Positions 8,421 through 64,000 of a stretch of DNA of 64,000 nucleotides are shown here, piece by piece (positions within the stretch are counted from its first letter, which is position 1; every line of letters begins with the position of its first letter). The stretch lies in assembly GCA_015075625.1 (NCBI GenBank), contig JABTTZ010000003.1, positions 310,001 through 374,000 on the forward strand. The letters are read 5' to 3'. The position numbers and the translations under genes are program-made. Source of the stretch: Anaerolineales bacterium. GTDB lineage: Bacteria; Chloroflexota; Anaerolineae; Aggregatilineales; UBA2796. Below the pieces are notes generated by a model. It was not told the DNA's origin and did no database searches. It was given only the letters and a program-made list of their open reading frames with translations.

Positions 8421-8468
8421 CTGGAAATCCACTGTAGCGAGGTGCTAAGGGTTAAAGGAGAAATCGCT

Positions 8469-44299: not shown

Positions 44300-45223
44300 C
44301 TAAAACACCAACCCGCTGCCCAAGCTGACATTGGCAAGGGCATCTTCGATCATCTCCATGAGCGCATCATCGTCAATGTCCTCGGCATACTCGATCATCT
44401 CATCAAGCAGGCGGCGTGCCTCCCCGCCGCCGATCTCCCCCAACGCCCAAATGGACATTTCCATCAATTGGCGATCCCCACCTTGTAGGTTGGGGGCAAT
44501 CTGGCTGACGGCTTCTTCTAGTTCAAGCTCGCCGGCTGCCCGAATTGCCTCATAGCGCATGGCGGAATCACTGTTACCCAACTCGCGGACGACAACCCGC
44601 GCCCATTTTTCATCACAAGAACGCCCCATCGCATAGACCGCGCTGGTCTGGAGCGGTAAATCTCCTGAGTCATAGGCGTCACGGATGAGGGCATCGACTT
44701 CCTCTCGGCTGGAGTTGGCAACCGCCTCCAACGCCCGACGGCGCACCTCTGTATCAACGCTCTTGTTTTTGTACAGCCGCAGGGCAAGGTTTTCTGCTTG
44801 ACGAGAGAGCATCTTACTGAACGTTCCTAACTCGCCAGCGAGGATAAATCGTCCCAACGCACTAAGTGCCGCCGCCCGTACACGCACGGAAAGATCAACC
44901 GAGGCAATGGGCAGCAGGGCGTGAAAGGTGAGCGCTGATTCATCTTGGGCGCTTGCCTCGATTGCCGCATAACGGACGTTCTCGTTTAAGTCCGTCATGG
45001 CAAGGCGGTTAATCACGCCAAAATCGGTATCAAAATCCGATTCGCTGATGTCGGCAATATGGCGCATCAGCTTTTGACGGCGCTCAAGGGGTATCTCCCC
45101 CCACGCCGTTAGAAGTGCCTCACGTTCCTTGTCCTCAAGGTTAGAGAGGCGGCGGACAAGACTCTTCGTCAGGGTTATTTCCGAATCCTTCAAGGTACGG
45201 ATCACATCGTCAAAGTGAAGCAC
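44300..45223 (-). CDS. HEAT-repeat protein
   Basis: A 307-residue, all-helical acidic protein with a GTG start. Repeating units of about 30-35 residues with the A-A-x-x-A-L pattern run through the whole chain, for example VRVRAAALSALGRFI, VRRRALEAVANSS, LQTSAVYAMGRSCD, MRYEAIRAAGELE and MEMSIWALGEIGGGEARRLL. The last resemble PBS lyase HEAT-like repeats. Such scaffolds bind proteins and have no catalytic residues of their own. It lies 24 bp after rseP and abuts the acylphosphatase gene. Confidence 0.85.
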   Translation of the reverse strand: MLHFDDVIRTLKDSEITLTKSLVRRLSNLEDKEREALLTAWGEIPLERRQKLMRHIADISESDFDTDFGVINRLAMTDLNENVRYAAIEASAQDESALTFHALLPIASVDLSVRVRAAALSALGRFILAGELGTFSKMLSRQAENLALRLYKNKSVDTEVRRRALEAVANSSREEVDALIRDAYDSGDLPLQTSAVYAMGRSCDEKWARVVVRELGNSDSAMRYEAIRAAGELELEEAVSQIAPNLQGGDRQLMEMSIWALGEIGGGEARRLLDEMIEYAEDIDDDALMEMIEDALANVSLGSGLVF

Positions 45224-45247
45224 ACCGCGCTCTCTATTCCCTCATCT

Positions 45248-46678
45248 CTAGCGAATGATTTGTCCAATAGGGTTAACAATATCGTTGATAATCAAGAGGA
45301 CGAACAACGCCAAGATGATCATCAACCCAACAAAGTGAATCATCCCTTCCCGTTCGGGGTTCATCGGCTTCCGGCGCAAAAGTTCGATGATGACAAAGAG
45401 AATTCGTCCACCATCAAAGCCCGGGATGGGCAGCAGATTCGTGAAGCCTAGCGCGATGCTGATCAGGGCGGCAAAGTTCAAAATCCAGTGTGGACGCCGT
45501 TCTTCTATGGAGGCTTGCAGCGCCTGAGAGCCGATCTGGGAAATACCGACGATGCTGACCGGACGTGCCTCTTGGATTGTCCGCAGCCCGCGTACCAATT
45601 CAACAGGGAAAGTGATCAGTTGATTGAGGATCGCCCCTGTTCGCGTAATGCCGTAATTGACAGCATCGCCAAAGCCCAAGCGGGTGATCCCGCCATTTGT
45701 GCTGTCTAACACTGCCAGCCCAAAGTTTTGATTGTATTCCAGTGCCTTTTCGGAGAGGAAAATCCCTACACGCCCTTGATTTTCAGGGGGGGTCTCGCGC
45801 GGGGTGACCTCAACCACCTTTTCCTCGCCCTTACGGACAATCGTGATCGGCGTCAGCTTGCCCGCATTTTCTTCGACCAGTTTTTGAAGTGTTTCGTTCG
45901 TTGAAACAGGCGTCCCGTTCACAGCAAGGATAATATCACCTTGTTCAAAGACGCCAGCGGCGGGGGAATCTTTCGCTGTGCCAGTGACAATGGGGTTTTG
46001 TCGAGGGCGCACCGCGTCTGTCGGTTGGATGGTCAGGTCGCGCCGTTCGCCGTTGCGTTCAATGGTGACGGTGACGGGCTTTCCCGCGCTCTCGTTCAGT
46101 GCTGCTGTGACAGCGTTAGCGTCCGTGACCAGCGTCCCATTCACGGCGACCACCAAATCCCCAAAAACGAAGCCGGATGTTCCCGCCGGAGAGGTGATGC
46201 TTGCCCCAGCAACGATAGGGGCGGGGGAGGGGATACCAATCAGCGCGGCGACGACCAAAATGACGAAGCCAGCGATGAAGTTCATCGTAGACCCCGCCGC
46301 TAAAAAGAGCATCCGCGACCACGGACCGACATCCATAACGCCCTTGATCGGCTGCTTCGACTTTTTGGCAACTTCTGCCAACTCTGCTTGGTAGATTGTG
46401 TAGGCTGCCTTTTCCGCCTCGGTTGCCTCGGCGCTCAGGGGGCGAACGAAATCCTCCCCAAGCGGGCGGACAAAGCCGCCGATGGGCAGCCAGTTCAGGC
46501 TGTAGATTGTCCCATTTCGTTCAAAGAGTTTCACGGCGCGGGGGGGAAAGCCAATCCCAAACTCCAACACGGTGACGCCCACAATCCGGCAGGCAATGAA
46601 ATGCCCCCATTCGTGAATGATGATCAGGGGACCAAGCACAATGAGGAAGGCGATAACCGAGAGAATAAACGAATCCAT
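45248..46678 (-). CDS. rseP: site-2 protease RseP family, two PDZ domains
   Basis: A 476-residue intramembrane zinc protease. HEWGH in TM1 (residues about 23-27) supplies two zinc ligands, and the third motif is NLLPIPGFDGGR in the C-terminal membrane part. Two PDZ domains lie in the middle (around FVFGDLVVAVNGTLV and VFEQGDIILAVNGTPV). Family members cut anti-sigma factors or leader peptides within the membrane. It is larger than average through the extra segment after the first TM (residues about 70-105). The minus-strand genes downstream follow closely, and a 500-bp non-coding stretch precedes it. Confidence 0.92.
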   Translation of the reverse strand: MDSFILSVIAFLIVLGPLIIIHEWGHFIACRIVGVTVLEFGIGFPPRAVKLFERNGTIYSLNWLPIGGFVRPLGEDFVRPLSAEATEAEKAAYTIYQAELAEVAKKSKQPIKGVMDVGPWSRMLFLAAGSTMNFIAGFVILVVAALIGIPSPAPIVAGASITSPAGTSGFVFGDLVVAVNGTLVTDANAVTAALNESAGKPVTVTIERNGERRDLTIQPTDAVRPRQNPIVTGTAKDSPAAGVFEQGDIILAVNGTPVSTNETLQKLVEENAGKLTPITIVRKGEEKVVEVTPRETPPENQGRVGIFLSEKALEYNQNFGLAVLDSTNGGITRLGFGDAVNYGITRTGAILNQLITFPVELVRGLRTIQEARPVSIVGISQIGSQALQASIEERRPHWILNFAALISIALGFTNLLPIPGFDGGRILFVIIELLRRKPMNPEREGMIHFVGLMIILALFVLLIINDIVNPIGQIIR

Positions 46679-47180: not shown

Positions 47181-47284
47181 GCTCCTTTGCCAGTGACTTG
47201 TTTACCTGTTGGCTAAGGCTGAGGGCGAGACAACCCAAACACACGCCCACGAAGCACCTATGCCCTGTTTTTCAGGATGAACCC

Positions 47285-50230
47285 TTGAATCTCTCTCTTG
47301 TTCTTCGCCGTGTCAGGCGTTTGCCTCGTCAGCTTGCGGCGCTCACGCTGGCGGTCTGCCTCGTCACTGGGTTTTTCGCCCTTGCCCCGCTCTACGTGCG
47401 GGTGATGGTACAGGCGGGCTTGCTCCATGAGTTTGAGTCCTTCCCCGTAGCAGACCGCGCTCTCACCTTGATCAGCCCGACGCCCTACGCCCCCGCTGCG
47501 TGGGACACGCTCAATGCGTCTATTGCTGATTTAAACGACGGTCTGATCCGCGTCAGCCGCTCTGGGTCACCCTTTGGCGGTTTTGCCCTCAACTATGGTG
47601 AACCAACAACAGAACTCAGCGGACGTTCGGAATTTCGCCACTACGCCTTTGCTTTTTCCGATATGGCGACGCGCTTTCGGCTGCTCGATGGGCGCTTTCC
47701 CCAACGGCTTGCCCCGCCCGACGACCCCGCCCGCCAAGCGCTGACGTCCGAAGATCAGATCGCCAAAGGGGTGGGCATTTACTCCCTCGGTGAGGTGGAG
47801 GCAGTGATCACCCCGCTGGTTGCCGAACGGTCTCGCTACGAGATCGGGACGCGCTTCGTCATTGGCGAGCGCCCGGGCGATCATGTGGTCGTCCATGTCG
47901 TCGGCATTGTCGAAGCCGTCGATCTAACCGACCCCCTGTGGGATTCCAACCGCGCCGCCCTTGAAGGGGAGATCATCGAGACGGGGCTGACCACCCGTGC
48001 TTACAATATGGCGTTCATCGTTACCGAGGGCGCGTATACAGACTGGGTGGCGCGGGCAACCCGCACAAACAACCGCGACAACAACAGCTTTTTGTGGCGC
48101 GTCGCCCTGAATGTGAACGCTATCAATGCTGATAACATTGCCGACACCCAAGAAAACCTTCGGAATGTGATTGCCAAGATCGGCGCAGAGTACCCAGGGT
48201 TGCTCAGCTTTGCCCCGATTTTGAAGCTGCTTGATGCCTATCGAGAGTCGGTCAGCCGCGCCGAACTGCCCGTCATTTTGCTGGCGGGTGCCGTTCTGGT
48301 CATGATGCTGTACCATCTGGTGGCAACGGTCAGCTTGTTTTTGGAACAGCAGCGCGAAGAATGGGCGTCGCTCAGCAGCCGAGGGGCGGGCGTGGGGCAG
48401 TTGATGTCCCTTCAGGGCTTGACGATGGCGATTTTATGTCTGATCGGGTTCATCCTCGGACCGTTGGTCGCCCTTCTCATTTTACAATTCTTGCTGGTTG
48501 CCAGCCCCCTTTTCGCGGCGACGGGTGGTGTCGCCCCCATCAGTGGGATTCCCCGTTCGGCAGTGATCCTCAGCGGGATTGCTGCCGTCGCCTCACTGGT
48601 TATGCTCACCTTGCCGGCGCTTTCGGCGGCACGACGCAGTTTGGCAGAGTTCAAGCAGATTGCCGCCCGCCCGCCGGATCGCCCCCTGTGGGCGCGGTAT
48701 GGGCTGGACATCATCTTTATCCTCGTTGGACTCGGCTTCATCGCCCGCTTGTTGTTCTTCATTGAGGGCGATTTAGGGGGGACGCTCGCCCTTCTTTTCA
48801 GCAATCCGGGCGCGTTGATTCGCCTTCTCCTCGACAGCGCAACGCGAACGGGCGGCTTGGGCGACCCCTTCAACCTCGTTGGACCCGCTTTATTTCTCAC
48901 AGGGATAGCCCTGCTGTGGTTGCGGCTGTTCCCGCTGGTGGTGCGCCTTGTGGGAGCGCCCTTCCGGCGGAGCAATGGGCTGACCTCGCCTCTTTCAGTC
49001 TGGACGGTAGAGCGCGATCCTGGGCATTACGGACAGCTTGTGCTGCTGCTGATTGGGACACTGGCGCTTGGCACAGCGGCATTGGCGCTGAACGCCACCC
49101 GTGACGGGGGAACATGGGCGCAAGCACGGCAGGATACCGGCGGGACGGTGCGCATCGACCTCGACCTTGCCAATGGCGGGCGGATGGATGCGGCAAATTG
49201 GGCGGCGCTTCCCGACGTGCGGGCGGCGACGACACTCACCCGCTATAACTCGGCGCCGCTTGGCGGCGAGGAGCAGTTTTCCTTCGTCGGGATCACGCCC
49301 GCCCAGATCGCGGACATCTTTCCCGAATATGCCTCTATACTCCACCCCCTAACAACCGTGATTCCGACCACCTTTCAAGAGTTTGATCGCCAGTTGGGAA
49401 AGAGTGTTTCTAAGACGATTTACCCCGCTATCCTCTCTGAAAAAATGGCGATGGAGGCAGGACGGCAGTTCCGTGATGATCGCCTTCCCCTGATGATGGG
49501 GAGTTTCGGCAGTGTCGGTGTGCTGCTGCCCGATAACACACGCCATACGGTGATCTATCTGGTCGTCGGCATCGTGCGCGATTTCCCCACGTTGGGGGCG
49601 AACGACCAATTTTTGATCATGAACGAGGGTTACCTGATGCAGGCGTTCAATGCCAATATCAGTGTGCCGCTGGCATACCGCGCCGTGCCAAACCAAATCT
49701 GGCTGGATTTGACCACACGAGTGTCCACCCCCGCCCTAGTAAACGCCCTCAATACCCTTAAGGGGGTCAAGGTCACCTGGGCATCGGATCGTTATGAGGC
49801 GCTGCTGAGAGAACCCCTTCCGGCGGCGGCGGCGGGGATGCTTTTTGCTGGTTTTTGGGTATCGTTAGCGCTCAGTCTGCTTGATTTTGGCTTTTATTTG
49901 GCGGTGACGGCACGGCGGCGTTCGTTGGGCTTTGCCGTGCTGCGGGCGCTTGGCTGGAATGCAAACCGCATTTGGGCGCAGTTAATTACCGAACATACCG
50001 TTCTTGTCCTTCCGGCGTTGATCGTGGGCATCCTTTTGGGAGGGGCATTGGCGTATGTCATTGTGCCATTCTTGCGGCTTGTGGGCGGGGCAACGTTGGT
50101 TCTCCCCCTACCGGCGCTGCTGATGCTCATGGTGGTGATGATCCTCAGCTTTGCTGTGCTTACCTTTGGTGCGGCGTGGTGGCTGCGTCGCTTAAATATC
50201 AATCAAGTGTTGCGATTGGGTGAAGAATAA
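47285..50230 (+). CDS. FtsX/MacB-type ABC transporter permease
   Basis: A 981-residue permease starting at the TTG at 47285, with AGGATGA six bases upstream. A longer frame starts at a TTG at 47198. TM1 (residues about 18-36) is followed by a large extracytoplasmic domain, three TM segments around 340-450, a further TM pair near 485-580, a second large external domain and three TM segments at the end (SLALSLLDFGFYLAVT ... LLMLMVVMILSFAVLTFGAAWWL). Two FtsX modules can be recognised, as in the YknZ/LolC-like exporters with duplicated permease halves. It is the first gene of a three-gene operon with two ATPases. Substrate is not evident. Confidence 0.85.
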   Translation: MNLSLVLRRVRRLPRQLAALTLAVCLVTGFFALAPLYVRVMVQAGLLHEFESFPVADRALTLISPTPYAPAAWDTLNASIADLNDGLIRVSRSGSPFGGFALNYGEPTTELSGRSEFRHYAFAFSDMATRFRLLDGRFPQRLAPPDDPARQALTSEDQIAKGVGIYSLGEVEAVITPLVAERSRYEIGTRFVIGERPGDHVVVHVVGIVEAVDLTDPLWDSNRAALEGEIIETGLTTRAYNMAFIVTEGAYTDWVARATRTNNRDNNSFLWRVALNVNAINADNIADTQENLRNVIAKIGAEYPGLLSFAPILKLLDAYRESVSRAELPVILLAGAVLVMMLYHLVATVSLFLEQQREEWASLSSRGAGVGQLMSLQGLTMAILCLIGFILGPLVALLILQFLLVASPLFAATGGVAPISGIPRSAVILSGIAAVASLVMLTLPALSAARRSLAEFKQIAARPPDRPLWARYGLDIIFILVGLGFIARLLFFIEGDLGGTLALLFSNPGALIRLLLDSATRTGGLGDPFNLVGPALFLTGIALLWLRLFPLVVRLVGAPFRRSNGLTSPLSVWTVERDPGHYGQLVLLLIGTLALGTAALALNATRDGGTWAQARQDTGGTVRIDLDLANGGRMDAANWAALPDVRAATTLTRYNSAPLGGEEQFSFVGITPAQIADIFPEYASILHPLTTVIPTTFQEFDRQLGKSVSKTIYPAILSEKMAMEAGRQFRDDRLPLMMGSFGSVGVLLPDNTRHTVIYLVVGIVRDFPTLGANDQFLIMNEGYLMQAFNANISVPLAYRAVPNQIWLDLTTRVSTPALVNALNTLKGVKVTWASDRYEALLREPLPAAAAGMLFAGFWVSLALSLLDFGFYLAVTARRRSLGFAVLRALGWNANRIWAQLITEHTVLVLPALIVGILLGGALAYVIVPFLRLVGGATLVLPLPALLMLMVVMILSFAVLTFGAAWWLRRLNINQVLRLGEE

Positions 50231-51118
50231 ATGGCTCAAGACTCACAAGGCGCACCCTTTATTGAGTGCGAAAATTTGGTGAAAATTTATAAGGTTGCCG
50301 ATCTCGAAGTCGTCGCTTTGCAGGGCATTGATCTGCGCATTGGTCAGGGCGAAATGATGGCGCTGGTTGGTCCGAGTGGGTCGGGAAAGTCCACCCTCAT
50401 GAACATCCTCGGCGGGCTAGATAAGCCTACCGCAGGGCGTGTCCATGTGGGCGAACACAACCTGCTTGATCTCAAGCGTGTGGAGCAAGTCCTCTATCGC
50501 CGTCGGGAGGTGGGCTTCGTCTGGCAGCAAACGGCGCGAAACCTTCTCCCTTACCTGACGGCGCTGGAAAATGTTGAACTCCCCATGGCGCTTGACGGTG
50601 TGAGGGTGAAGGTGCGCCGCGCCCGCGCCCGCGATCTCTTGGAGCGCGTCGGCTTGGGACACCGCCTTACCCACCGCCCAGATCGGCTTTCCGGTGGCGA
50701 ACAGCAGCGCGTTTCGATTGCGGTGGCAATGGCAAACCACCCCCGCCTGTTGCTTGCCGATGAACCAACCGGCGAGGTCGATAGCGAAGCGGCTGACCAG
50801 ATTTTTAAGGCGCTGCGCGATTTCAACCGCGAGGAGAACGTGACGATCATCATTGTCACCCACGATATGCACGTCTCGGCGCGGGTGGATCGCGTTGTGG
50901 GGATGCGCGATGGACGGACAAGTATCGAAATTCTGCGGGATCGGGATGGCTCTGGGGCAACCACCCGCGAACAAGAATACGCCATTGTGGATCGTGCTGG
51001 ACGGCTGCAACTGCCGCAAAGTTATATGGAAACCCTCGGTCTGGCGGAGCGGGCAAAGGTACAGCTTCGGGAAGATCACATTGGCGTTTACCCCGATGAT
51101 CAAGAGAGGCTGAATTGA
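50231..51118 (+). CDS. LolD/MacB-type ABC ATPase with C-terminal extension
   Basis: A 295-residue ATPase with Walker A GPSGSGKSTL, signature [15 protein letters not shown], Walker B LLLADEPTGEVD and the IIVTHD switch. The ATG comes immediately after the stop of the permease gene. After the ATPase core (about residue 225) there is an extra tail of about 60 residues ending in AGRLQLPQSYMETLGLAERAKVQLREDHIGV. That tail resembles an AbrB/SpoVT-like swapped-hairpin segment and is not part of ordinary LolD proteins. It powers the permease, probably together with the next ATPase. Confidence 0.9.
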   Translation: MAQDSQGAPFIECENLVKIYKVADLEVVALQGIDLRIGQGEMMALVGPSGSGKSTLMNILGGLDKPTAGRVHVGEHNLLDLKRVEQVLYRRREVGFVWQQTARNLLPYLTALENVELPMALDGVRVKVRRARARDLLERVGLGHRLTHRPDRLSGGEQQRVSIAVAMANHPRLLLADEPTGEVDSEAADQIFKALRDFNREENVTIIIVTHDMHVSARVDRVVGMRDGRTSIEILRDRDGSGATTREQEYAIVDRAGRLQLPQSYMETLGLAERAKVQLREDHIGVYPDDQERLN

Positions 51119-51879
51119 TGACAACTGCCACCCGTTCCCAAAGCGACTCCCACCCATACAGCGATCCTTCTGCTCAGGAAAGCGCAGCGAATCCCGTCAT
51201 TGAGGTTCAAAACCTCTCCCATATCTATCACCTGCAAGGGGAAGATGTTCACGCCGTGAATCAGGTGAATTTGGCGATTTACCCGGGACGTATGACCGCC
51301 ATTGTGGGGCGTTCGGGAAGCGGCAAGACAACCCTGCTGAACCTGATTGCCGGCTTGGATACCCCCACCCAAGGGGATGTGGTGATCCTCGGCAAGCGCC
51401 TGCGCGATTTGGATGAAAATGCCCGCCTTACACTCCGCCGCGAAACGCTTGGCTTTGTCTTTCAAAGTTTCGGGCTGCTGCCCCTGCTGACGGCGGCGGA
51501 AAATATTGGCGTACCGCTGCGGATGCGCAATGCCCCCCGCAAAGAACGCGAGACAGCCATCGCAGAGGCGCTCGAATGGGTGGGGTTAACCCGCCGCAGT
51601 CACCATCGCCCCTATGAATTAAGTGGTGGGGAACAGCAGCGCGTTGCCATTGCCCGCTGCCTTGCCGCCAAGCCGCAGATTGTCCTTGCCGACGAACCTA
51701 CCGGTCAGTTGGATAGTGCCACAGGACGGCGTATCCTTGATCTGCTGCGGCGGCTGGTGGTAGAGCGCGGCGTGACAATGGTCATTGTCAGCCATGATCC
51801 GCTGGTCATGGCAGAAGCCGATATTGTCCACGAACTGCGCGATGGGCGCTTGATTGAGACACGCTATAAGGGGCGTTAG
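51118..51879 (+). CDS. LolD/MacB-type ABC ATPase
   Basis: A 253-residue ATPase with Walker [11 protein letters not shown], signature [15 protein letters not shown], Walker [12 protein letters not shown] and VIVSHDPLV. The ATG overlaps the upstream TGA (TGATG at 51116-51120). A TTG in the same frame lies one codon earlier. It lacks the C-terminal tail of its neighbour. Two different ATPases for one long permease suggest an asymmetric heterodimer. Its TAG overlaps the TAA of the convergent gene by three bases (TTAG at 51876-51879). Confidence 0.92.
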
Positions 51880-52835
51880 CGAACGCTGATTGGGAGTTCG
51901 CCTCGCCCATCCACCAGCGCGTAAAGCGCCCGTGCCGCAAAAGTGGATAGTTCGATGCGTTCTCGCTCTAACGATGTGCCGCGTTCGCCAAAACGGTTGT
52001 GCCAATACGCCCCGCTAACCGGGATGGATAGGCTGCCTGCACCCTCAACAATCATCAATGATGGGCGAAAATACGATATACCGCTCACCACTCCACTGGG
52101 TGCAACGACGCGCAGAATCCCCTCTAAGGGGGCGCTCAGCCAGCTATAGGTTGCCGCCTCACCGATCTTCCGTCCCCCATCGTAGAGGGTCAGCCGCGCC
52201 TGCGCTCTGTCGATGATCGCGGCGGGCTGGGCAAGGGCAGTCCCCGCCAACGGGTAAGGGGCGAGATGCGCAGCGGGCAGCCAACCATACCCCGCCGGAC
52301 TGCCCGCCACAAGCGAAACCGAATACCACCGCATCCCGTAATCATCGATCAGCGTCTCATGGACGATGACAACCATCCCAAAATAAAGCCGCTCTAAGAT
52401 CGGTGCGGCGGTGGCGCAGTATTGACGAATGGCGCTGAACGGCGCGATCACCTCCCCATATGTCCCTTCGGTGAGCGCTGGTGGGGGTGTGTAGGGAAGG
52501 ATAAGCTGGAGGCGATCCCTCTGGACATAGCCCACTGGCAGCCGATACCATGCACCGTCCTCTGACAAGGCGCTGATGGCGTGTACGCTGTCCGCCGGAA
52601 GTGTTTCGGTCAGGGGGGCTGTGGTGGATGGTGCGGCGTGGGCAGTGTGTGTGGCAAAGGCACGCCCGAAAAGGGGTGTATCGGTGGGGAGTCCGAGCGT
52701 CCCCCGAAGGATGGCGGCGTTGGGATGGGCGGGGGCTGGTTCGGCGGTGATCTGGAAGGGTGGCATGGCAATGGCGGCTGCCGCTATGCCAGATCGTTTT
52801 AGAAATGTCCGACGCGATAGGCGGTTGAACACCAT
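51876..52835 (-). CDS. exported L,D-transpeptidase-like protein without catalytic residues
   Basis: A 319-residue protein with a Tat signal (SRRTFLKRSG at residues 7-16, then a short hydrophobic stretch). The middle region has SH3-like segments (WYRLPVGYVQRDRLQL and MRWYSVSLVAG). The C-terminal third aligns with the YkuD fold: AIIDRAQARLTLYDGG is the usual entry strand and SGAYWHNRFGERGTS the usual HGTYWHN-FG stretch. The SHGCxRL catalytic motif reads SLERERIEL here, and the first His is Ser, so His, His and Cys are all lost. I read it as a non-catalytic peptidoglycan-associated paralogue. Convergent with the ABC ATPase gene. Confidence 0.75.
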   Translation of the reverse strand: MVFNRLSRRTFLKRSGIAAAAIAMPPFQITAEPAPAHPNAAILRGTLGLPTDTPLFGRAFATHTAHAAPSTTAPLTETLPADSVHAISALSEDGAWYRLPVGYVQRDRLQLILPYTPPPALTEGTYGEVIAPFSAIRQYCATAAPILERLYFGMVVIVHETLIDDYGMRWYSVSLVAGSPAGYGWLPAAHLAPYPLAGTALAQPAAIIDRAQARLTLYDGGRKIGEAATYSWLSAPLEGILRVVAPSGVVSGISYFRPSLMIVEGAGSLSIPVSGAYWHNRFGERGTSLERERIELSTFAARALYALVDGRGELPISVR

Positions 52836-53083
52836 ACCCTGATCCTCCGTCTAGAACGCAACGCTAGGATCATTGTATCCCAACTTGAACGCTATACTCC
52901 GTTTGTCTTGGGCAGCGTTCTCCCTACGCTAGAGACTAGTCGTCTGTCAGGAAGGCAACTATAGAATCGGCTACCCCTCATCCCCCTCGCCCGCAGAATT
53001 TCTCCCTTTCCCCGTAAACAGGGAAAGGGGGCAGGGGGGATAGGGGTTCTTTTAGAAATCTTCCTGATGGACTTATAGGTAGA
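52836..53083. other. 248-bp intergenic region with R1 repeat
   Basis: No gene is found. It holds R1 copy 5 (53001-53065) and the promoter region of the pseudo-transpeptidase gene near 52860-52900. Confidence 0.6.
53001..53065. repeat. dispersed repeat R1, copy 5
   Basis: tctccctttccccgtaaaca, then gggaaagggg and ggggataggggttctttt. It is flanked by cccgcagaa on the left and tagaaatcttcctga on the right, like copy 4. It lies just past the stop of the aminotransferase gene. Confidence 0.75.
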
Positions 53084-55043: not shown

Positions 55044-57032
55044 ATGGAGCGCGTGGATACGATTTTGTCAGGTGGCTACGTCCTGACGATGAACGAGGGC
55101 TACGATTCCTATACAAACGGCGCGGTAGCTATCCGCGATGGCGTCATTGTGGCGGTGGGTCCGGCGGAGGAAATCCAACGCCACTACACCGCCGCTGATC
55201 TCGTCTTGTGTGAGGATCAAGTGATTATGCCTGGGTTGGTGAACAGCCACACCCATGCGGCAATGACCCTTCTACGTGGGTTGGCGGACGACCTACGCTT
55301 GGATGTGTGGCTCATGGGCTACATGATGCCCACCGAGGCGCATTTTGTGACGCCCGAATTTTGCCGCTTGGGGACGCTCCTCGCCTGTGCAGAGATGATC
55401 CGTTCGGGAATCACGATGTTCGCTGACATGTACTATTTCGAGTCGCATGTTGCCGCCGCCACCGCCGAGGCGGGCTTGCGCGGCGTCTTAGGGCAGAGCG
55501 TCTTAAAATTCCCCACCCCCGATGCCCCCAGTTACGAGGATGGCATTGCCGCTACACGGCGTTTTATTGAGGAATGGAAGGGACACCCTCTCATTGTGCC
55601 GGCAATTGCCCCCCACGCTCCCTACACCTGCACGGATGATATTCTCCTCGCCTGTGCGGAGGTCGCTCGCGATTATGATGTGCCGCTGCTGATCCACATT
55701 TCGGAAACCAAATTAGAGGTAGAGGACAGCCGTGAGGAATTTGGGATGCCCGTCGTCCCCCGCGTGAAGAAACTGGGGTTGGTCGATGTGAAAATGCTGG
55801 CGGCACACTGTGTCCATATCGACAGTGGCGAAATCCGCACACTGGCGAAACACAATGTAGGCGTCGCCCACTGCCCAACAAGCAATCTGAAACTTGCCAG
55901 CGGGATTGCCCCCGTTGTGGAGATGCTAGAACGGGCGATGAATGTGGGCATTGGGACGGACGGACCCGCCAGCAACAACGACCTTGATATGTTTGAGGAA
56001 GTGCGTCTTGCGGCGATCTTGGCGAAAGGGGCAACCCTGAACCCCGTTGTAGTTCCGGCAAAGCAAGCCTTGGCGATGGCAACCCGTTTGGGGGCGCAGG
56101 CAATGCACATGGGCGATATGACCGGCAGTTTGGAGGTGGGCAAGCGGGCGGATGTGATCACCGTGCGGCGGGCGACACTCCATAACACGCCGACCTTCTC
56201 CCGCGATCCTGATGCCGTCTACAGCCAGATTGTCTATGCCGGAAAAAGCACCGATGTTCAGCATGTGATGGTCAACGGCAAATGGCTGATGCAGGATCAG
56301 CGCGTGCTGACGGTGGATGAAGCGGCAGTGATGCGTGAGGCAAGAGATTTGGCGTTGCAAATCGATGCCTTCCTCGTCGCCCGCGAGGGGAATGTCCTGA
56401 ATAAACTGATTGCCATTGGCGGCGTAGAGCAAACGGAAAGTTTTGAGATTCAAGTGAAGGCACACCTTCCCGAAGCAGAAGATGCCGAGGCGCTTTTTGC
56501 CGCCCTCTTTGAGGAAACAACCGTACAAATTGTCCGGCAGACGCACTACCGGCAGTATGACACCTATTTCATGTTTCTTGACGCCACACAGGGGCGTGTG
56601 CGCTACCGCGAGGATGATGCGCTGGATAAGGATGGGAACGTGGAGAGCGTCCGTACACGGCTGACCTACACAACACCGAGCAAAGAAGTGGAGTTTGAGC
56701 AAGATGTCTTGTTGAGCCGCTCCCGATTCATTGCGGCAGCGAACCGCCCCCTGCGCTTTTACCGCGAATATTTCCGCCCCAACGAAGAACGTGCTATCCA
56801 AAAAGAGCGCCGCCGCTGGCATATTCTCTATAAGGGCGTCTTATTCTATGTGAACGCCGATAAAATGATCGCCCCAGAGATGGCAGGGTTGTTCGTTGAG
56901 ATCAAGAGCCAAACATGGTCGCGCAGTGACGCTGATTACAAAGCAAAACTGATCAGCGAATTACTTGCCATGTTGAACCTAACCCCCGAAAAACGGATTC
57001 GTAAAGAGTATGTTGAGTTGGCGCTGATTTAA
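55044..57032 (+). CDS. MTA/SAH deaminase-like amidohydrolase fused to a CYTH-like domain
   Basis: A 662-residue protein. Residues 1 to about 440 are a complete MtaD/SsnA-type amidohydrolase: NSHTHAAM with metal His 69 and 71, LADDLRLDVWL, HAPYTCTDDIL, HISETKLEVEDS, AHCVHIDSGE, HCPTSNLKLASG and IGTDGPASNND with the last metal Asp. Residues about 464 to 662 resemble the CYTH/triphosphate tunnel fold: FEIQVKAHLPE in the place of the ExExK motif, HYRQYDTYFMF, VRYREDD, TRLTYTTPSKEVEFE and GLFVEIKSQTW. The middle Glu of ExExK is Gln. Deamination of methylthioadenosine or S-adenosylhomocysteine is inferred for the N-terminal part. The role of the second domain is unknown. Confidence 0.82.
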   Translation: MERVDTILSGGYVLTMNEGYDSYTNGAVAIRDGVIVAVGPAEEIQRHYTAADLVLCEDQVIMPGLVNSHTHAAMTLLRGLADDLRLDVWLMGYMMPTEAHFVTPEFCRLGTLLACAEMIRSGITMFADMYYFESHVAAATAEAGLRGVLGQSVLKFPTPDAPSYEDGIAATRRFIEEWKGHPLIVPAIAPHAPYTCTDDILLACAEVARDYDVPLLIHISETKLEVEDSREEFGMPVVPRVKKLGLVDVKMLAAHCVHIDSGEIRTLAKHNVGVAHCPTSNLKLASGIAPVVEMLERAMNVGIGTDGPASNNDLDMFEEVRLAAILAKGATLNPVVVPAKQALAMATRLGAQAMHMGDMTGSLEVGKRADVITVRRATLHNTPTFSRDPDAVYSQIVYAGKSTDVQHVMVNGKWLMQDQRVLTVDEAAVMREARDLALQIDAFLVAREGNVLNKLIAIGGVEQTESFEIQVKAHLPEAEDAEALFAALFEETTVQIVRQTHYRQYDTYFMFLDATQGRVRYREDDALDKDGNVESVRTRLTYTTPSKEVEFEQDVLLSRSRFIAAANRPLRFYREYFRPNEERAIQKERRRWHILYKGVLFYVNADKMIAPEMAGLFVEIKSQTWSRSDADYKAKLISELLAMLNLTPEKRIRKEYVELALI

Positions 57033-57075
57033 CCTGCCCTAGCCAAAGCTGTCCTTCAGAGAGGAACGCAACGCC

Positions 57076-57729
57076 ATGTCGGGACTGCCAGAAAACCCAA
57101 TTTTGATCATCAGCAGCGGGGGCAACGCGGGTCAGCGCTGCGCGATCAAAACACAGACTTTCCTCATCGGACGTGATCCATCCTGTGAGCTTTCGCTGAA
57201 CGAGCGAGAAATTTCGCGTCACCACGCGAAAATCACCCAAGAAGGAGAGCGTTTCATCCTCCATGATTTGGAGAGTAAGAATGGGACATGGGTGAATGGC
57301 GAGCAGCTGCAAGGGCAGCGCGACCTTGAAGATGGCGATGAGATTGTGCTAGGGAAGGTGGTGCGCATCACCTTCACCGAGTCGGAATCCACCGCCCCCT
57401 ACAACCCTGAAAATGCCCCCTTTGACGGGAAACTCCGGCTAGAACGGGAATCGCGGCGGGTATTCGTGGATGAACGGGAAGTAAATCCCCCCTTGAGTCT
57501 GCCGCAGTACCGGTTGTTGGAACTGCTCTTTGATGCGCGGGGTGCAATCTGCACGCGGGATCAGGTGGTGCGGGCGGTGTGGCCCGATGCAATCAGTGAG
57601 GGGGTCAGCGAGCAGGCGATTGATGCGCTGGTGCGGCGGCTGCGGGATCGAATTCGGGAGTTAGATTCCTCGCATGAGTACATCGTCACCGCACGGGGGC
57701 ATGGCTTTCGGCTGGACAACGAGGGGTGA
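57076..57729 (+). CDS. FHA domain-winged helix DNA-binding protein
   Basis: A 217-residue regulator. The FHA domain covers about residues 10-105 with the phosphothreonine-binding pattern LIGRDPSCELSL, REISRHHAKI and LESKNGTWVNG. The C-terminal half (about 125-215) is an OmpR/PhoB-type winged helix: LSLPQYRLLELLF, VVRAVWPDA, IDALVRRLRDRIREL and YIVTARGHGFRLDN. No receiver domain is present. It probably binds DNA according to Ser/Thr kinase signalling, although no kinase is nearby. AGAGGAA lies upstream of the ATG. Its last codons and stop (57715-57736) are repeated exactly at 62702-62723. Confidence 0.9.
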   Translation: MSGLPENPILIISSGGNAGQRCAIKTQTFLIGRDPSCELSLNEREISRHHAKITQEGERFILHDLESKNGTWVNGEQLQGQRDLEDGDEIVLGKVVRITFTESESTAPYNPENAPFDGKLRLERESRRVFVDEREVNPPLSLPQYRLLELLFDARGAICTRDQVVRAVWPDAISEGVSEQAIDALVRRLRDRIRELDSSHEYIVTARGHGFRLDNEG

Positions 57730-57736
57730 GAAGGGC
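57715..57736 (+). repeat. 3' end of FHA gene duplicated at 62702
   Basis: 22 bp (gacaacgaggggtgagaagg plus two more bases) including the stop codon are identical at 62702-62723, inside repeat copy B. This could mark an attachment-like or recombination site at the left border of the accessory region. Confidence 0.6.
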
Positions 57737-57777
57737 TGGTCAGGGGTGGTAACGAATGGGAAAGGAATCAGATTGGG

Positions 57778-58014
57778 ATGACACTTCAAGAGGTTCTGCA
57801 AGAGGCAAAAAACCTTTCCATCAAAGATCGTCAGGAACTCATTAAACTTCTGGTCGATACTCTGATAATGGAGAACATAACACCTCCCTCATTAGAAACT
57901 TTCCTTAACCCTGATGTGGCACACGAGGTATGGTCTCCTTACGACTCATTTAAGGCTGCCCAACAATTGCAAGACATGCTAGATGCGTACCGCCGTGAAC
58001 CTGCCCAATCGTGA
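57778..58014 (+). CDS. small antitoxin-like hypothetical protein
   Basis: A 78-residue acidic helical protein. The opening TLQEVLQEAKNLSIKDRQELIKLLVDTL resembles the small addiction-module or partner proteins that begin with an LS-x-x-D-(K/R)-x-x-L-(I/L)-x-x-L pattern. AAAGGAA precedes the ATG by about a dozen bases. It overlaps the retropepsin-like gene by 32 bp in another frame. Such small proteins are often paired with aspartyl protease-like or toxin genes. I infer a partner relationship here but cannot assign a function. Confidence 0.6.
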   Translation: MTLQEVLQEAKNLSIKDRQELIKLLVDTLIMENITPPSLETFLNPDVAHEVWSPYDSFKAAQQLQDMLDAYRREPAQS

Positions 58015-58423
58015 ACAGTATCCGTACCGTGAAGCACATGATTCACAGGGTCAGTCGCTGTTTCGCCCGCTGATCCCGATCAGGCTGCAAAATGGAGAGA
58101 AGTCAGCTACAGCACTTGGACTGCTGGATACTGGTGCGACCATCAATGTACTTCCATTTAACATTGGGCTTGAACTGGGTTTCTTGTGGGTAGAACAATC
58201 CCATTCCATTGAGCTAACAGGCAATTTGGGGCAGTATGAGGCACGCGGCGTTCTCGTCGTTGGGAACATTGGGTAATTCTTGCCAGTGCCACTCGTGTTT
58301 GCGTGGACACATGTAAAAAACATCCCGCTTATTTTAGGGCAGGTGAATTTCTTTGCCGAGTCCGATGTGTGTTTTTTCTCGGCACAAAAGATATTCGAGA
58401 TCGGGACAAAACAGATTGGCTAG
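57983..58423 (+). pseudogene. retropepsin-like aspartyl protease gene with an in-frame stop
   Basis: The frame starting MRTAVNLPNREQYPY contains ALGLLDTGATINVLP at about residues 42-56, with the DTGA active-site motif of retropepsin-like proteases. A TAA at 58274-58276 ends it after 97 residues. Reading on in the same frame gives PLVFAWTHVKNIPLILGQV, then NFFAESDVCFFSAQKIFEI and a stop at 58421, which is the usual C-terminal part of this family (I/L-L-G-x-x-N/D-F-F). A single CAA-to-TAA change would explain the stop. The gene is either inactivated, read through, or affected by a sequencing error. Confidence 0.75.
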
Positions 58424-58460
58424 ATGGTGTAAGGAATACGTTTTCCAACGAGAGTCCATA

Positions 58461-58540
58461 CCTTCAGCGTACAATTAGGATGAGCGGAGGGCAGTACACT
58501 CTCACCGTTCTGAGGGTGGCTTCGCACACGCATCAGAGCA
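58461..58540 (+). repeat. island repeat, copy A
   Basis: Begins ccttcagcgtacaattagga, continues with tgagcggagggcagtacact and ctcaccgttctgagggtggc, ending near acacgcatcagag. Homologous to copies at 62629 and 63736. It lies between the broken protease gene and the frameshifted membrane protein gene. Confidence 0.85.
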
Positions 58541-58559
58541 AGGGTAAGGAAGACTAAGG

Positions 58560-59053
58560 ATGCCGGCTGAAATAATCTTACTTCTCCTTGGTACAGTGCT
58601 AACTGCGCTGGGCTGGGGGGCAAAAACGCCCTATGAGCGATTTACGACCCGTCCTCGCATACTGGCACGCCTGTTTTTCCGGCGAGGAACACAAGATGGA
58701 ATAAGTAGAATCCCATTAATCATTTTTGATGTGATCAATTATGGGGAAAAGCCTGTTGTCATTGTGGAACTCCAAGTCCTCATCGCCAAGACGTTTTTAT
58801 TCGCAGAGGCTTAATCGGAATCCCCATTCGCAAAGAGTCAATTGGTATGGGTGATCTTCGGGGAAACAGCCATTTGCCCTACAACCTGCACCCAGGTGAA
58901 ACACTGTCCTTTCAGTGTGATATGGAACGTTTTGGGCGTGTATTGATCGACAGTAATGCACCTCAAAATGGACGATTTCAATCCGTTTTTTTGACGCGGC
59001 TCGGAAGAAGTACCGTTCGAGATGGTCGATGTACACTCTTGGCGAGATCGTAA
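58560..59053 (+). pseudogene. frameshifted membrane-anchored hypothetical protein
   Basis: The first frame (58560-58814) starts MPAEIILLLLGTVLTALGWG, a TM anchor, and continues with basic and beta-like sequence up to VVIVELQVLIAKTF. The natural continuation is in the -1 frame: IRRGLIGIPIRKESIGMGDL, then YNLHPGETLSFQCDMERFG and a stop at 59053. The switch lies at or near the T-run GTTTTTA (58793-58799), so one missing T would join the two. Together they give about 164 residues with a single TM and a beta-sandwich-like domain. I do not recognise the family. Confidence 0.6.
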
Positions 59054-59228
59054 GCCCTGAAATTAAGAGAGATATCGTTTGAGAGGGACAATGAACCAGA
59101 CTCATTGACCTCTTCTGTTGGCTAGTTAAGGGAGGAGTGGAGGCGATAAGGGTCACTATAAGTCTATATTTCGTGCCTCAATCGCCATCCATGTGTCTTG
59201 ATCCGATCTAAAGGACGAACAGATGCGC

Positions 59229-59234
59229 TATAAT
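59229..59234 (+). promoter_or_regulatory. candidate -10 (TATAAT) of the methyltransferase gene
   Basis: GCGCTATAAT lies 38 bp before the GTG start at 59272. It is a consensus -10. No consensus -35 is found at 16-18 bp spacing. Confidence 0.4.
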
Positions 59235-59253
59235 GTGCATACAATCTCGGTAA

Positions 59254-60411
<1,158 letters not shown>

Positions 60412-61438
60412 TATCATACGTCTTATGTGAAATTAAAAAGCATGAACAGATGACCATTGAAAAGTCTGGACATGAATGCCATAGCGAAGGCGCAACAAGT
60501 ATTTGAGCAAGTGAGCAGTGACTTTGGCAATCAGGCGGGTGGTCAAGCCCAGCACCGTCTTCGCCAACAGACGCTCCAAGTTGCGTCCCGTATTCTGAAG
60601 TTCGTGAAATACCCCTTCAATCCGCTCACGCACACGGTTGAGCAACTGCTCAAAGCCGTCAGGATGTTGGATTTTCTGGTTCTTGCGCTTGGGGGTCAGC
60701 AAAGTGTTGCCCGTTCGCTGCTGAATTTGGGCTTGCCACTCGCCCCCGACAAACCCTTTATCGCCCAAGATTTCAGCGTTGGACACTTCATCAAGGATCG
60801 TTTCAGCCGCTTGTCTTTCCTCGGTGTTGGCGGACACCAGATCGTAGACGACAGGAATACCGTCCAGCGTCGCAATCAACACCAGTGTGTAGCCGAAATA
60901 GTGCAAGTTGCGACTGGCGCAATACCCGTAATCTGCACTGCCTCGAAAGTCGCTGCGGGCTTTGCTCCGTTTGTAAGCCAACACCGGCACGGGCTTGGTA
61001 TCAATCAAGTATTTGTCGGCTTGTCCCACGCCCAATTCCATCAACCACTCCCGACGCAACGCTTCCACCAAATGCCGCAGTCCCCGTGCCCGTCGATTAA
61101 ACTGACTTTGGTCAAGCAACTGCGGAAACAGGGGCAAGTAATTGGCACGGATGAACGCCAGATATTGCATCTCAGCAGGATAGGGGATGTAATCCTCTGC
61201 CACCATCAGCGTCATTCCCTCACTGTCACTGAAACTGGGCTTGCGTCCCACTTTCCCCTTCATCATCCTGCCTCCTCTCGCTTGATACCAATCATCAATC
61301 AGCACAAAGATGATGGTCAACAGCGTTTCAAGGTCTATACTGGTCATGGGTTGTTTTCCTTTGATGGTTTGTTTGGTAACTTCCCATCTTGGCAAACACC
61401 TCTTTTTGTCAACTACATTTCACATAGAGCGTATAATA
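60412..61438. mobile_element. IS982-type insertion sequence, complete
   Basis: About 1027 bp. Imperfect terminal inverted repeats of about 22 bp: left 60412-60433 (TATCATACG then TATGTGAAAT) and right 61417-61438, whose reverse complement is TATTATACG then TATGTGAAAT, with mismatches in the centre. It contains one transposase gene on the minus strand. The size fits the IS982 group (about 1 kb). I see no convincing target duplication. The left end abuts the methyltransferase stop codon. Confidence 0.75.
60433..61347 (-). CDS. IS982-family-like DDE transposase
   Basis: A 304-residue transposase. The ATG at 61347 (MTSIDLETLL) has AAAGGA nine bases upstream and is preferred over the ATG at 61395. 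Helical N-terminal domain with FSDSEGMTLMVAEDYI and QSQFNRRARGLRHLV, then a DDE core: YLIDTKPVPVLAYKR (first Asp), ILGDKGFVGG (second Asp) and a Glu in RVRERIEGVFHELQN. Length, layout and element size fit IS982, but related IS4/IS5-type groups cannot be excluded. The frame is intact, so the element may be active. Confidence 0.82.
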   Translation of the reverse strand: MTSIDLETLLTIIFVLIDDWYQARGGRMMKGKVGRKPSFSDSEGMTLMVAEDYIPYPAEMQYLAFIRANYLPLFPQLLDQSQFNRRARGLRHLVEALRREWLMELGVGQADKYLIDTKPVPVLAYKRSKARSDFRGSADYGYCASRNLHYFGYTLVLIATLDGIPVVYDLVSANTEERQAAETILDEVSNAEILGDKGFVGGEWQAQIQQRTGNTLLTPKRKNQKIQHPDGFEQLLNRVRERIEGVFHELQNTGRNLERLLAKTVLGLTTRLIAKVTAHLLKYLLRLRYGIHVQTFQWSSVHAF

Positions 61439-61523
61439 GGTAAATCTAGCTCTTTCGGTAAAGATTGGTTTACCATCCCTACCAGCGAGCACTGCTAAAT
61501 TCTAGGCAACAAGGAAAAGATCG

Positions 61524-62216
61524 ATGTCAGAATCAAAAATCACACACGGGTTGCTTCATTCTACGATCCTACAATTTATTATTGATAAAGGGTTTGCCCC
61601 AGAAGTTGCTGAATTAGCTTCAATGCTGAACGTCACAGAACCAGAAATCATCGAGGCATTGAAGGCGTTACAGAATTATCACGGGGTTGTCCTGCACCCG
61701 AATGAGGCTCGGATATGGGTCGTACACCCGTTTTCTCTGGCTCCCACCAACTTCACGGTTCGCACAGTTGATAAAGAATATTGGGGTAACTGCGCCTGGT
61801 GTTCACTTGGAGTTGCGGCACTTCTGAACCGCGATGTCACCATTACCACCGTATTAGGCGCTGATCGACACCAAATTGATATACATATCCGGGATGGTGA
61901 ACTGGTTGAAAGTAACTTTTACGTTCATTTCCCAATCCCGATGACAAAAGCCTGGGATAATGTCATCTATACTTGTAGCACAATGCTACTGTTTGAAAGT
62001 GCGTCAGATGTTGAACGATGGAGCCAACAGCATCGTATTGCACGAGGTGATGTTCAATCGATACAGAATATATGGAACTTTGCTAAGGTCTGGTATGGAA
62101 ATCATCTCAATCCCCAGTGGGAAAAATGGACGAATCGGCAAGCTTTAGATATTTTTGAGCAATTTGGACTGACTCACGATATTTGGCACATCCCCGCATC
62201 GGAGACTCGCTTCTAA
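61524..62216 (+). CDS. MerB-like (alkylmercury lyase family) protein lacking the active-site Asp
   Basis: A 230-residue protein. An N-terminal winged-helix-like region (about residues 15-65) is followed by the MerB core: NCAWCSLGVAALLNRD aligns with the AWCALD motif, where Cys is the first catalytic residue. The Asp three positions later is Gly here. VIYTCSTMLLFES aligns with the region of the second catalytic Cys, and SDVERWSQQH with the following helix. In canonical MerB the Cys-Cys-Asp triad breaks the carbon-mercury bond. With Asp missing, activity on organomercurials is doubtful. No merA or merR is nearby. Confidence 0.78.
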   Translation: MSESKITHGLLHSTILQFIIDKGFAPEVAELASMLNVTEPEIIEALKALQNYHGVVLHPNEARIWVVHPFSLAPTNFTVRTVDKEYWGNCAWCSLGVAALLNRDVTITTVLGADRHQIDIHIRDGELVESNFYVHFPIPMTKAWDNVIYTCSTMLLFESASDVERWSQQHRIARGDVQSIQNIWNFAKVWYGNHLNPQWEKWTNRQALDIFEQFGLTHDIWHIPASETRF

Positions 62217-62314
62217 ACCTATAAATACCTGGTCGAAACTGGGCATTTCTTCGGTATTGAAGTTGTAGGGACGCCTGTCTGCTGGAACATTAATCCCCTA
62301 TTGTTTTGGAAACC

Positions 62315-62557
62315 ATGCGTCGAAATCATCTGGTTGCGTGCCTGATCCGGTTCGATGATCTGGGCGAGATTTACAATGCACTCAATGACCTGAAAAAATC
62401 CGCCGCGAACCGCTTACGGCTTGAGATTTTTGCGGGTTCGGTATTGTGCAAGGTGGAAGAAGGCAGCGGAACGAGCTATCAAGAAGTACAGGGTGGGGCT
62501 ACGCACAATCGTGATTTTGCTGTCGAAAATATGCAGCGATATTTGGCATATACTTGA
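62315..62557 (+). CDS. hypothetical short ORF
   Basis: An 80-residue frame starting MRRNHLVACLIRFDDLGEIY and containing an amphipathic helix (NALNDLKKSAANRL). There is no clear ribosome site and no recognised family. It may be a degraded gene end. It fills part of the gap between the MerB-like gene and repeat copy B. Confidence 0.35.
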   Translation: MRRNHLVACLIRFDDLGEIYNALNDLKKSAANRLRLEIFAGSVLCKVEEGSGTSYQEVQGGATHNRDFAVENMQRYLAYT

Positions 62558-62628
62558 AGAAAACAGTACATATTCTTTGGGACTTCCGGTCATACAATTA
62601 ACCAGCAAGACCCCACATATTCACCGGA

Positions 62629-62726
62629 TTCAGCGTACAATTGGGATGAGCGGCGGTCAGTCCACGCTCACGGCTCTGGGGTTGACTTCTCGCATGCATT
62701 AGACAACGAGGGGTGAGAAGGGCGGT
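62629..62726 (+). repeat. island repeat, copy B
   Basis: ttcagcgtacaattgggatg, then agcggcggtcagtccacgct and a conserved right part ggggttgacttctcgcatgc attagacaacgagggg. It ends with the 22 bp identical to the FHA gene end. It directly precedes the mrr leader. Confidence 0.85.
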
Positions 62727-62754
62727 TCTTTTTTCCACTTTGAGGAGAGTTCCA

Positions 62755-63678
62755 ATGGCGGTGCCAGATTTCCAATCCTACATGACACCTTTGCTGAATC
62801 TATTGAGCGATGGTCAAGAACACAAAATAACCGATATATCAGAGGCGCTTGTACACCATTTTCAACTCACTGAGGATGACCTGAATGATCTTATCCCAAG
62901 CGGACGCAAAAGCCGCCATTATGATCGGGTAGGTTGGGCAGCCACCTATATGAAACAAGCTGGGCTGCTCTCATCTCCAAGCCGTGCGTGGTATAAGATT
63001 ACCGAACGTGGCTTGGGGTTGGTGCAATCGGGTACAAACATTAATAACGATGTACTGGATCAGTTTCCTGAGTTTGTGAATTTTAAAACGCGCTCCAGAG
63101 TGAGTAACTCGTATCAAAAAGCAAACGTTGTGCATTCAACAAACCTATCTCATGTATCCCTCTCGCCCGATGAAACGCTTGAATTAGTTTCTCAAGAACT
63201 TCGCAATGCGCTGGCTATTGACCTGCTAGAAAGGTTGAATCAGGGTTCTCCCCAATTTTTCGAGCAAGTCGTTATCGATCTGCTCTTAGCGATGGGATAC
63301 GGCGGATCGCACCGTGATGCAGCAAGGCGAGTTGGTCAGTCTGGCGATGGCGGGATCGACGGCATTATTAACGAGGATCGATTGGGGTTGGATGTTGTTT
63401 ACATTCAGGCAAAACGCTGGCAGGGGAATATTGGGGCGAGAGAATTACGGGACTTCGTGGGGAGCTTGGATGACAAAAGAACAACAAAAGGCGTGTTCAT
63501 AACGACCTCACAATTCACTCGTGAGGCTCAAGACTATGTGGCTCGAAGTTCTAAACGTATTGTCCTTATTGATGGCGAGGAACTTGCTCAACTGATGATT
63601 GACTTCAATGTTGGGGTGGCAGCGCGAAAAACGTATGTCATAAAGCGAATTGATGAGGATTATTTCAGCGAAGAGTAG
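62755..63678 (+). CDS. mrr: Mrr-family type IV restriction endonuclease
   Basis: A 307-residue protein, close to the 304 of E. coli Mrr. The ATG at 62755 follows GAGGAGAG. The N-terminal Mrr_N winged-helix domain runs over about residues 3-95 (DFQSYMTPLLNLLSDG ... AWYKITERG). The C-terminal Mrr_cat domain has FFEQVVIDLLLAMGYGG, the catalytic GDGGIDGIINEDRLGLDVVY and YIQAKRW blocks (PD-(D/E)xK nuclease), GVFITTSQFTREAQDYV and LIDGEELAQLMIDFNVGV. E. coli Mrr restricts DNA carrying certain N6-methyladenine or 5-methylcytosine marks. It shares the island with a CcrM-like methyltransferase. Confidence 0.93.
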   Translation: MAVPDFQSYMTPLLNLLSDGQEHKITDISEALVHHFQLTEDDLNDLIPSGRKSRHYDRVGWAATYMKQAGLLSSPSRAWYKITERGLGLVQSGTNINNDVLDQFPEFVNFKTRSRVSNSYQKANVVHSTNLSHVSLSPDETLELVSQELRNALAIDLLERLNQGSPQFFEQVVIDLLLAMGYGGSHRDAARRVGQSGDGGIDGIINEDRLGLDVVYIQAKRWQGNIGARELRDFVGSLDDKRTTKGVFITTSQFTREAQDYVARSSKRIVLIDGEELAQLMIDFNVGVAARKTYVIKRIDEDYFSEE

Positions 63679-63735
63679 TCTTTGCTGATGCTTAATGAGC
63701 CGAGTCGTTGTCCCCTACACGCCACCCATTCTGCG

Positions 63736-63828
63736 CCTTCAGCGTACAATTAGGATTAGCGGAGGGCAGTACACGCTCACGGTTCTAGGGTTGACTTCTC
63801 GCACGCATTAGACAATGCGGGGTGAGGA
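63736..63828 (+). repeat. island repeat, copy C
   Basis: ccttcagcgtacaattagga, ttagcggagggcagtacacg, then ggttgacttctcgcacgcat tagacaatgcggggtgagg. It is closer to A in its left half and to B in its right half. It is followed by a decayed copy of the mrr leader and gene. Confidence 0.85.
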
Positions 63829-63981: not shown

Positions 63982-64000
63982 ATCTTCCATGCAAGGGGTG

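Follow-up and report, generated by a model that had tools for sequence, protein, structure and literature searches.

What can a protein be kept for that has the fold of an L,D-transpeptidase (LDT) and none of its catalytic residues? This question is raised by a minus-strand open reading frame in the window, the 64,000-nucleotide stretch of DNA analysed here. The frame begins with ATG, contains no internal stops and encodes 319 amino acids. The reading we favour, and to which we give an even chance, is that of a Tat-exported pseudoenzyme of the LDT family, now a wall-facing subunit for binding or scaffolding that is linked to a CcdA/TlpA redox module. The gene and its parts are as follows.

51876-52835, minus strand: pseudo-L,D-transpeptidase (pseudo-LDT) gene, 319 amino acids (open reading frame call; clade of 50 members)
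52761-52820, minus strand: Tat signal (LSRRTFLK), residues 6-25 (TIGR01409 over its cut-off, PF10518 below)
52500-52673, minus strand: first SH3-like region, about residues 55-112 (predicted strands; limits inferred from the strands of the model)
52257-52460, minus strand: second SH3-like region, about residues 126-193 (SH3_3 match; column counts)
52416-52418, minus strand: Cys140, the sole Cys of the window protein (Cys in 36/50 family members and 0/40 intact LDT rows)
51879-52235, minus strand: YkuD-fold domain lacking the catalytic residues, residues 201-319 (best VIA-align Z 12.4; hhalign E 1e-40)
51987-52016, minus strand: SGAYWHNRFG segment, residues 274-283 (the His of HG is replaced by Ser; H279 in all 50 family rows and all 40 intact rows)

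The Tat signal scored 22.9 bits against a TIGR01409 cut-off of 16.7, and its residues R8 and R9 are found in all 49 family rows that cover these positions. SH3_3 matched residues 141-191 narrowly over its cut-off (27.6 bits, cut-off 27). For the first SH3-like region, positions 53-102 of the family profile weakly matched the PDB chains 2kyb and 2kt8 (E 0.012-0.013), which we take to be SH3 domains. The C-terminal region, which reads VSGAYWHNRFGERGTSLERERIELSTFAARALY, was compared with that of the intact relative L030: HG has become SG, SHGC is absent and YWHN.FG is kept. Active members of the YkuD family carry the His of HG and an S-x-G-C with the catalytic Cys, and are recognised by PF03734. 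At the catalytic positions the window protein has Ser for the HG-His and no Cys, PF03734 did not match it at E<=1, and no Pfam model matched its C-terminal region at that threshold. PF03734 was found in one of 18 family members (E 0.011) and a PDB search with the family profile returned five weak matches, none of them an LDT, so that the YkuD domain will usually be missed by annotation.

Comparisons of profiles and structures nevertheless place the protein in the YkuD fold superfamily. Aligned by hhalign, the family profile (A2, 18 rows) matched a set of eight intact Tat-SH3-YkuD proteins (A5) over 288 columns with a probability of 100 and E 1e-40. The AlphaFold2 model of the window protein, computed from eight input sequences, has a mean pLDDT of 69.7. 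Its residues 201-319 gave a best VIA-align row of Z 12.4 (4jmn; 107 residues at 2.5 A), and B. subtilis YkuD (1y7m) reached Z 12.0. Among the 50 matches listed, most bear the title L,D-transpeptidase or YkuD. Of the rest, Bd1075, Pgp2 and Csd6 are presumably also YkuD-type, 1zat carries the title peptidoglycan-binding protein and 4xxt that of a fused amidase/peptidase. With the whole model as query, Foldseek put SH3-type chains on top and returned LDTs with low TM-scores. A chance likeness to YkuD was also considered and is ruled out by VIA-align and hhalign. As judged from the predicted model and the profile-profile comparison, the YkuD fold is present in the window protein. An open groove in this domain is only putative, because pLDDT falls below 50 in the WHN loop (residues 278-280) and in most of residues 282-289, as it does in residues 1-37.

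The loss of the catalytic residues is a property of the whole group of orthologues. A first search gave matches in 24 of 41 genomes, and the family profile was then searched against 151 genomes from the order and 301 from the phylum. The clade sample comprises 50 near-full-length members from 50 genomes of one order (families f1, f2, f5, f7 and f8), and S-x-G-C occurs in none of them. In the column of the catalytic His (S274 in the window protein), His stands in one of the 50 clade rows, compared with all 40 intact rows. The column of the catalytic Cys holds Cys in 1/50 and 40/40 rows, respectively; here the second count follows from the S-x-G-C pattern by which rows were sorted into inactive and intact, so that only the HG-His count is independent. 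All 47 open reading frames scoring above 156 bits to the family profile, itself built from inactive members, lack S-x-G-C. Outside the order, the top score in the phylum search was 143 bits, compared with 335 for the window protein, and the full-length rows retrieved from there retain S-x-G-C. Two members, L132 (DGCAVQ; counted as inactive) and L052 (PDHCVEL), have a Cys near the catalytic place and no HG His, and L142, which retains HG and lacks SHGC, is by its sequence a possible intermediate in the catalytic loss. Left out of the counts were L051 (a 120-residue fragment at a contig end), L054 (a broken frame in two pieces), the pieces in L032 and L117 that are truncated at an edge, and fragments known from the profile search whose sequence was not retrieved; in L143, the profile match extends beyond the open frame at one end, across two stops. 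The pseudo-LDT of L054 (genome G022) is split over overlapping frames of the minus strand, 7863-8702 and 7733-8059, and its second piece keeps HG (LHGAYWHNDFG), has no SHGC and adjoins an intact LDT. Local decay, a further candidate cause of the catalytic loss, is ruled out, since the loss is common to the clade of 50.

The initial annotation, made from the DNA letters alone, had described an LDT fold with all catalytic residues replaced (SG for HG, SHGC gone, YWHN.FG kept) behind a Tat signal and SH3-like regions. This account agrees in each of these points with the structural and profile alignments, the comparison with L030, the domain searches and the survey of orthologues.

In a 62-row tree, which took in 25 of the 50 clade members and from which the catalytic columns had been removed, the inactive members form one clade (UFBoot 100, SH-aLRT 99), recovered in 100% of 200 bootstrap trees. 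A quick 90-row tree places all 50 in one clade (99) with L122, which reads SAGC, counted among the intact rows; with L122 labelled inactive, this tree required two label changes. The sister branch of the clade is weakly placed (86/77 in the 62-row tree). As far as alignment and tree show it, a single loss removed both the catalytic His and the catalytic Cys, and it predates the divergence of at least five families of the order. The shared loss and the single clade therefore speak for one old loss, followed by retention under purifying selection. Ratios of dN/dS were 0.19-0.35 in eight pairs of relatives (NG86, stop-to-stop frames), with dS above 1 in four of the eight and the window's copy outside the pairs. 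From these comparisons of sequences, the status of the window protein as a pseudoenzyme is well supported.

Conservation within the clade has moved away from the former active site. Most newly conserved positions lie in the second SH3-like region, where W185 (50/50), G153 (49/50), A144 (47/50), L162 (46/50) and G184 (46/49) have become nearly invariant. In the YkuD domain, by comparison with the intact rows, conservation has been lost at many positions and WHN is retained.

In the relatives, the gene stands in a consistent neighbourhood. A CcdA-type gene follows on the same strand within 350 nt in 40 of the 47 loci with more than 600 nt of downstream sequence. Counted over the whole retrieved flank at any distance, and again on the same strand, a gene of the sulfite-oxidase fold (PF00174) lies upstream in 36/47 loci, a thioredoxin gene upstream in 11/47 and a DUF2085 gene downstream in 30/38. 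Among the domains encoded by these neighbours are DsbD_TM and thioredoxin domains that are ResA/StoA-like. Among 31 open reading frames chosen by a pattern for the first Cys motif of CcdA, which misses some CcdA genes, the second Cys motif is present in all and WCxxC in 23. The seven loci in which CcdA does not directly follow the pseudo-LDT are those of five genomes of genus g5, L045 and the window. In the g5 genomes, a thioredoxin gene directly upstream of the pseudo-LDT takes its place, and in L045 (f7) the pseudo-LDT is succeeded by an intact LDT, one further gene, CcdA and DUF2085, in that order. The CcdA::TlpA gene of the window's genome sits on a different contig (C2, about 389 kb); a DUF2085 gene lies on the opposite strand about 5 kb beyond it. 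G001, of the same genus as the window's genome, has a pseudo-LDT fragment (L051) directly before CcdA and TlpA.

CcdA and DUF2085 are spread almost throughout the order: of 151 genomes, 133 have CcdA at E<=0.001 (in 94 it exceeds the cut-off) and 145 have DUF2085. The CcdA/TlpA module does not need the pseudo-LDT, because CcdA::TlpA-DUF2085 exists without an adjacent LDT in two families (f4 and f6) and in part of two others (f2 and f8). In f3, three of seven retrieved loci (L167, L168 and L171) carry between one and three intact LDTs immediately upstream of CcdA or DUF2085, which is not an unbiased rate, because L167 and L168 were picked for a known LDT and L172 meets a contig end. Three tandem intact Tat-SH3-YkuD transpeptidases stand directly upstream of CcdA-DUF2085 in L167 and of DUF2085 in L168. 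CcdA was absent from the flanks of all eight other intact LDT loci, seven of them from outside the order; the linkage of intact LDTs to CcdA was thus observed only in f3 and f7, two families of the order. A thiol-reductant system adjoining a Cys-dependent wall enzyme makes sense.

Two further observations concern the partners of this module. A multihaem cytochrome gene in the neighbourhood of L044 led us to consider cytochrome c maturation as the module's job. In 11 of 37 copies of the PF00174 protein (L047, L048, L049, L127, L131, L134, L143, L150, L153, L154 and L155), the column of the presumed Mo-ligand Cys has lost this residue and holds Ser, Asn, Arg or Ala. The Cys-less protein of L048 still scores 122 bits, and all three PF00174 genes in the window's genome have retained the Cys. 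Judged by this column, the sulfite-oxidase-fold protein is possibly a second enzyme that is becoming a pseudoenzyme.

The preferred reading of a wall-facing binding subunit can be set out as follows. The ancestor would have been a transpeptidase of the order Tat-SH3-SH3-YkuD, which, after the single loss of its catalytic residues, would have retained its fold and the WHN segment, along with a second SH3-like domain in remodelled form. Its SH3 regions and the empty transpeptidase groove may bind either a peptide of the wall or a partner protein, and the bound pseudo-LDT would then place or regulate the extracytoplasmic thiol-reductant module, made up of CcdA, usually fused to TlpA, and DUF2085, often with the sulfite-oxidase-fold protein. 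The fold is probably kept for binding and not for chemistry, because the catalytic residues are gone and the fold is kept in a protein usually encoded beside a membrane thiol-reduction system. This proposal draws on the shared loss, the single clade, the fold, the selection seen in relatives, the CcdA operon, the intact LDT-CcdA linkage in f3 and f7 and the fragment before CcdA/TlpA in G001. Against it stand the CcdA::TlpA-DUF2085 loci without an adjacent LDT, the lack of a directly following CcdA in the window's genome, in the five g5 genomes and in L045, the eight intact LDT loci without a flanking CcdA and the uncertain sister branch of the clade. The initial annotation had likewise proposed a pseudoenzyme kept for binding. 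The first part of this proposal stands on the shared catalytic loss and the YkuD fold, and binding, which we infer, is consistent with the same data.

The strongest rival, although a doubtful one, assigns the new thiol of C140 a role as client or sensor: the CcdA/TlpA relay would reduce C140, and the redox state of the envelope would thereby switch wall binding. Cys at this position is found in the family and in no intact row, it is the lone Cys of 14 of the 50 mature proteins (the window's among them), and the relay genes adjoin the pseudo-LDT in most loci. However, the column holds no Cys in 14 of the 50 members (12 Ala, 1 Pro, 1 Gly), 13 of which still adjoin CcdA. With eight changes on the 90-row tree the residue is labile, and a protein with one Cys has no second thiol for an intramolecular disulfide. 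In an unlikely extension of this idea, the redox module itself would have converted the wall enzyme into a sensor or adaptor, with the SH3 Cys replacing the catalytic Cys that the relay once reduced, and wall binding would report or direct the thiol status of the envelope. The sulfite-oxidase-fold partner, in which the presumed Mo-ligand Cys is missing from part of the copies, may be drifting likewise. Between the loss of C140 and the loss of the Cys in the PF00174 protein no co-loss signal was found, with too few independent pairs.

It is similarly unlikely that the protein regulates active LDTs, as an inactive partner or as a decoy for the same wall peptides. Five intact LDTs coexist with it in the window's genome, and a pseudo-LDT and an intact LDT stand in tandem in two f7 loci (L045 and L054). 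These two are, however, the only pseudo-LDT loci with a second LDT among those inspected for neighbours, and the five intact LDTs of the window's genome are either on different contigs or at a distance of about 200 kb.

Quite improbable, in turn, is a live enzyme of another kind, whose new active site would lie around the invariant H279-N280. Other chemistry on the LDT scaffold has been reported, namely serine-dependent beta-lactam hydrolysis by a YafK-family protein (PMC13400389), and W278 (48/50), H279 (50/50) and N280 (45/50) are strongly conserved in the clade. The intact LDT rows keep the same residues, however (W278 40/40, H279 40/40, N280 32/40), for which reason they may be structural, and beyond residue 200 only L304 and Y305 are newly conserved at 75% or more.

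The window's copy alone might be a relic that decays outside the operon, which we regard as very improbable. Its position outside the CcdA operon and its 34% identity to the G001 fragment, which does adjoin CcdA, would fit such decay, but the open frame is full-length and the Tat signal, W170, W185, G153, C140, W278, H279 and N280 are all kept. The surroundings of this copy have features of their own. The aminotransferase gene on its upstream side is 248 bp away, and the gap between the two contains an inverted repeat with 12-nt arms and a 2-nt loop (53004-53029), beside a 33-base stretch that occurs once in the window. Relatives of the genes for a HEAT-repeat protein and a membrane-protease-like protein (44300-46678, about 5 kb away) adjoin the pseudo-LDT of G006 (L043); by sequence, they are a trace of gene order shared with that genome. 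Positions 56001-64000 have a GC content of 0.48-0.51, compared with about 0.56-0.61 elsewhere, enclose a DNA methylase with a RAMA domain (59272-60411) and possibly represent an acquired segment.

A functional tie to the neighbouring FtsX-type ABC exporter, as the initial annotation had suggested, is hardly credible: an FtsX permease and two ABC ATPases (47198-51879, plus strand) do adjoin the gene, whose end overlaps their operon by 4 nt, and a convergent ABC ATPase gene is also found in five g5 loci, but the arrangement is convergent, so that the two are not one transcript, and tblastn (E<=1e-4) with the window's FtsX found no match in the 49 other orthologue loci, with flanks of almost none to about 8 kb per side and a distant FtsX able to escape. 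ABC ATPases were matched in seven other orthologue loci; the five from g5 (L036, L037, L038, L040 and L041), where such a gene adjoins the pseudo-LDT, gave no match to the window's FtsX. As a conserved trait, an FtsX partnership was thus tried and rejected; the conserved neighbour is the CcdA-type gene.

The wall-facing binding subunit that we favour can be set beside several known systems. In fold and in the retained WHN.FG, residues 201-319 resemble the YkuD LDTs (PF03734; LdtMt1/LdtMt2 and B. subtilis YkuD), and the intact Tat-SH3-YkuD proteins of the order align with the family over 288 columns. Unlike these enzymes, the pseudo-LDTs lack the catalytic His and SHGC and are barely recognised by PF03734. 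In the literature searched, including that on Chloroflexi transpeptidases together with CcdA, we came upon no account of LDT-fold members that are catalytically dead, and the portions at hand of a 2025 LDT review (PMC12729407) describe none. A parallel within wall biology is given by the inactive LytM domains of SpoIIQ and SpoIVFA, which likewise combine a wall-enzyme fold with active-site substitutions. That of SpoIIQ serves localisation, according to the available part of PMC3533761. LytM domains differ from the pseudo-LDT in having an M23 peptidase fold and acting in another process.

The neighbours of the pseudo-LDT resemble thiol-reductant systems of the type CcdA plus TlpA, ResA or StoA, with their DsbD_TM and ResA/StoA-like thioredoxin domains. 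To our knowledge, these systems contain no LDT-fold subunit. The target of StoA is the transpeptidase SpoVD. The accessible text of PMC12445088 links StoA, a ResA-like reductant, with endospore biogenesis and, through a title that it cites, with cortex synthesis; as far as this text goes, StoA offers a distant parallel to a thiol-reductant system beside a Cys-dependent wall enzyme. With a clade of single origin, barely recognised by Pfam, next to a thiol-reductant relay, the order provides a test case for a link between wall enzymes and extracytoplasmic redox systems, in which the wall enzyme can be compared beside the same genes in its intact (f3), mixed (f7) and inactive (f1, f2, f5 and f8) states.
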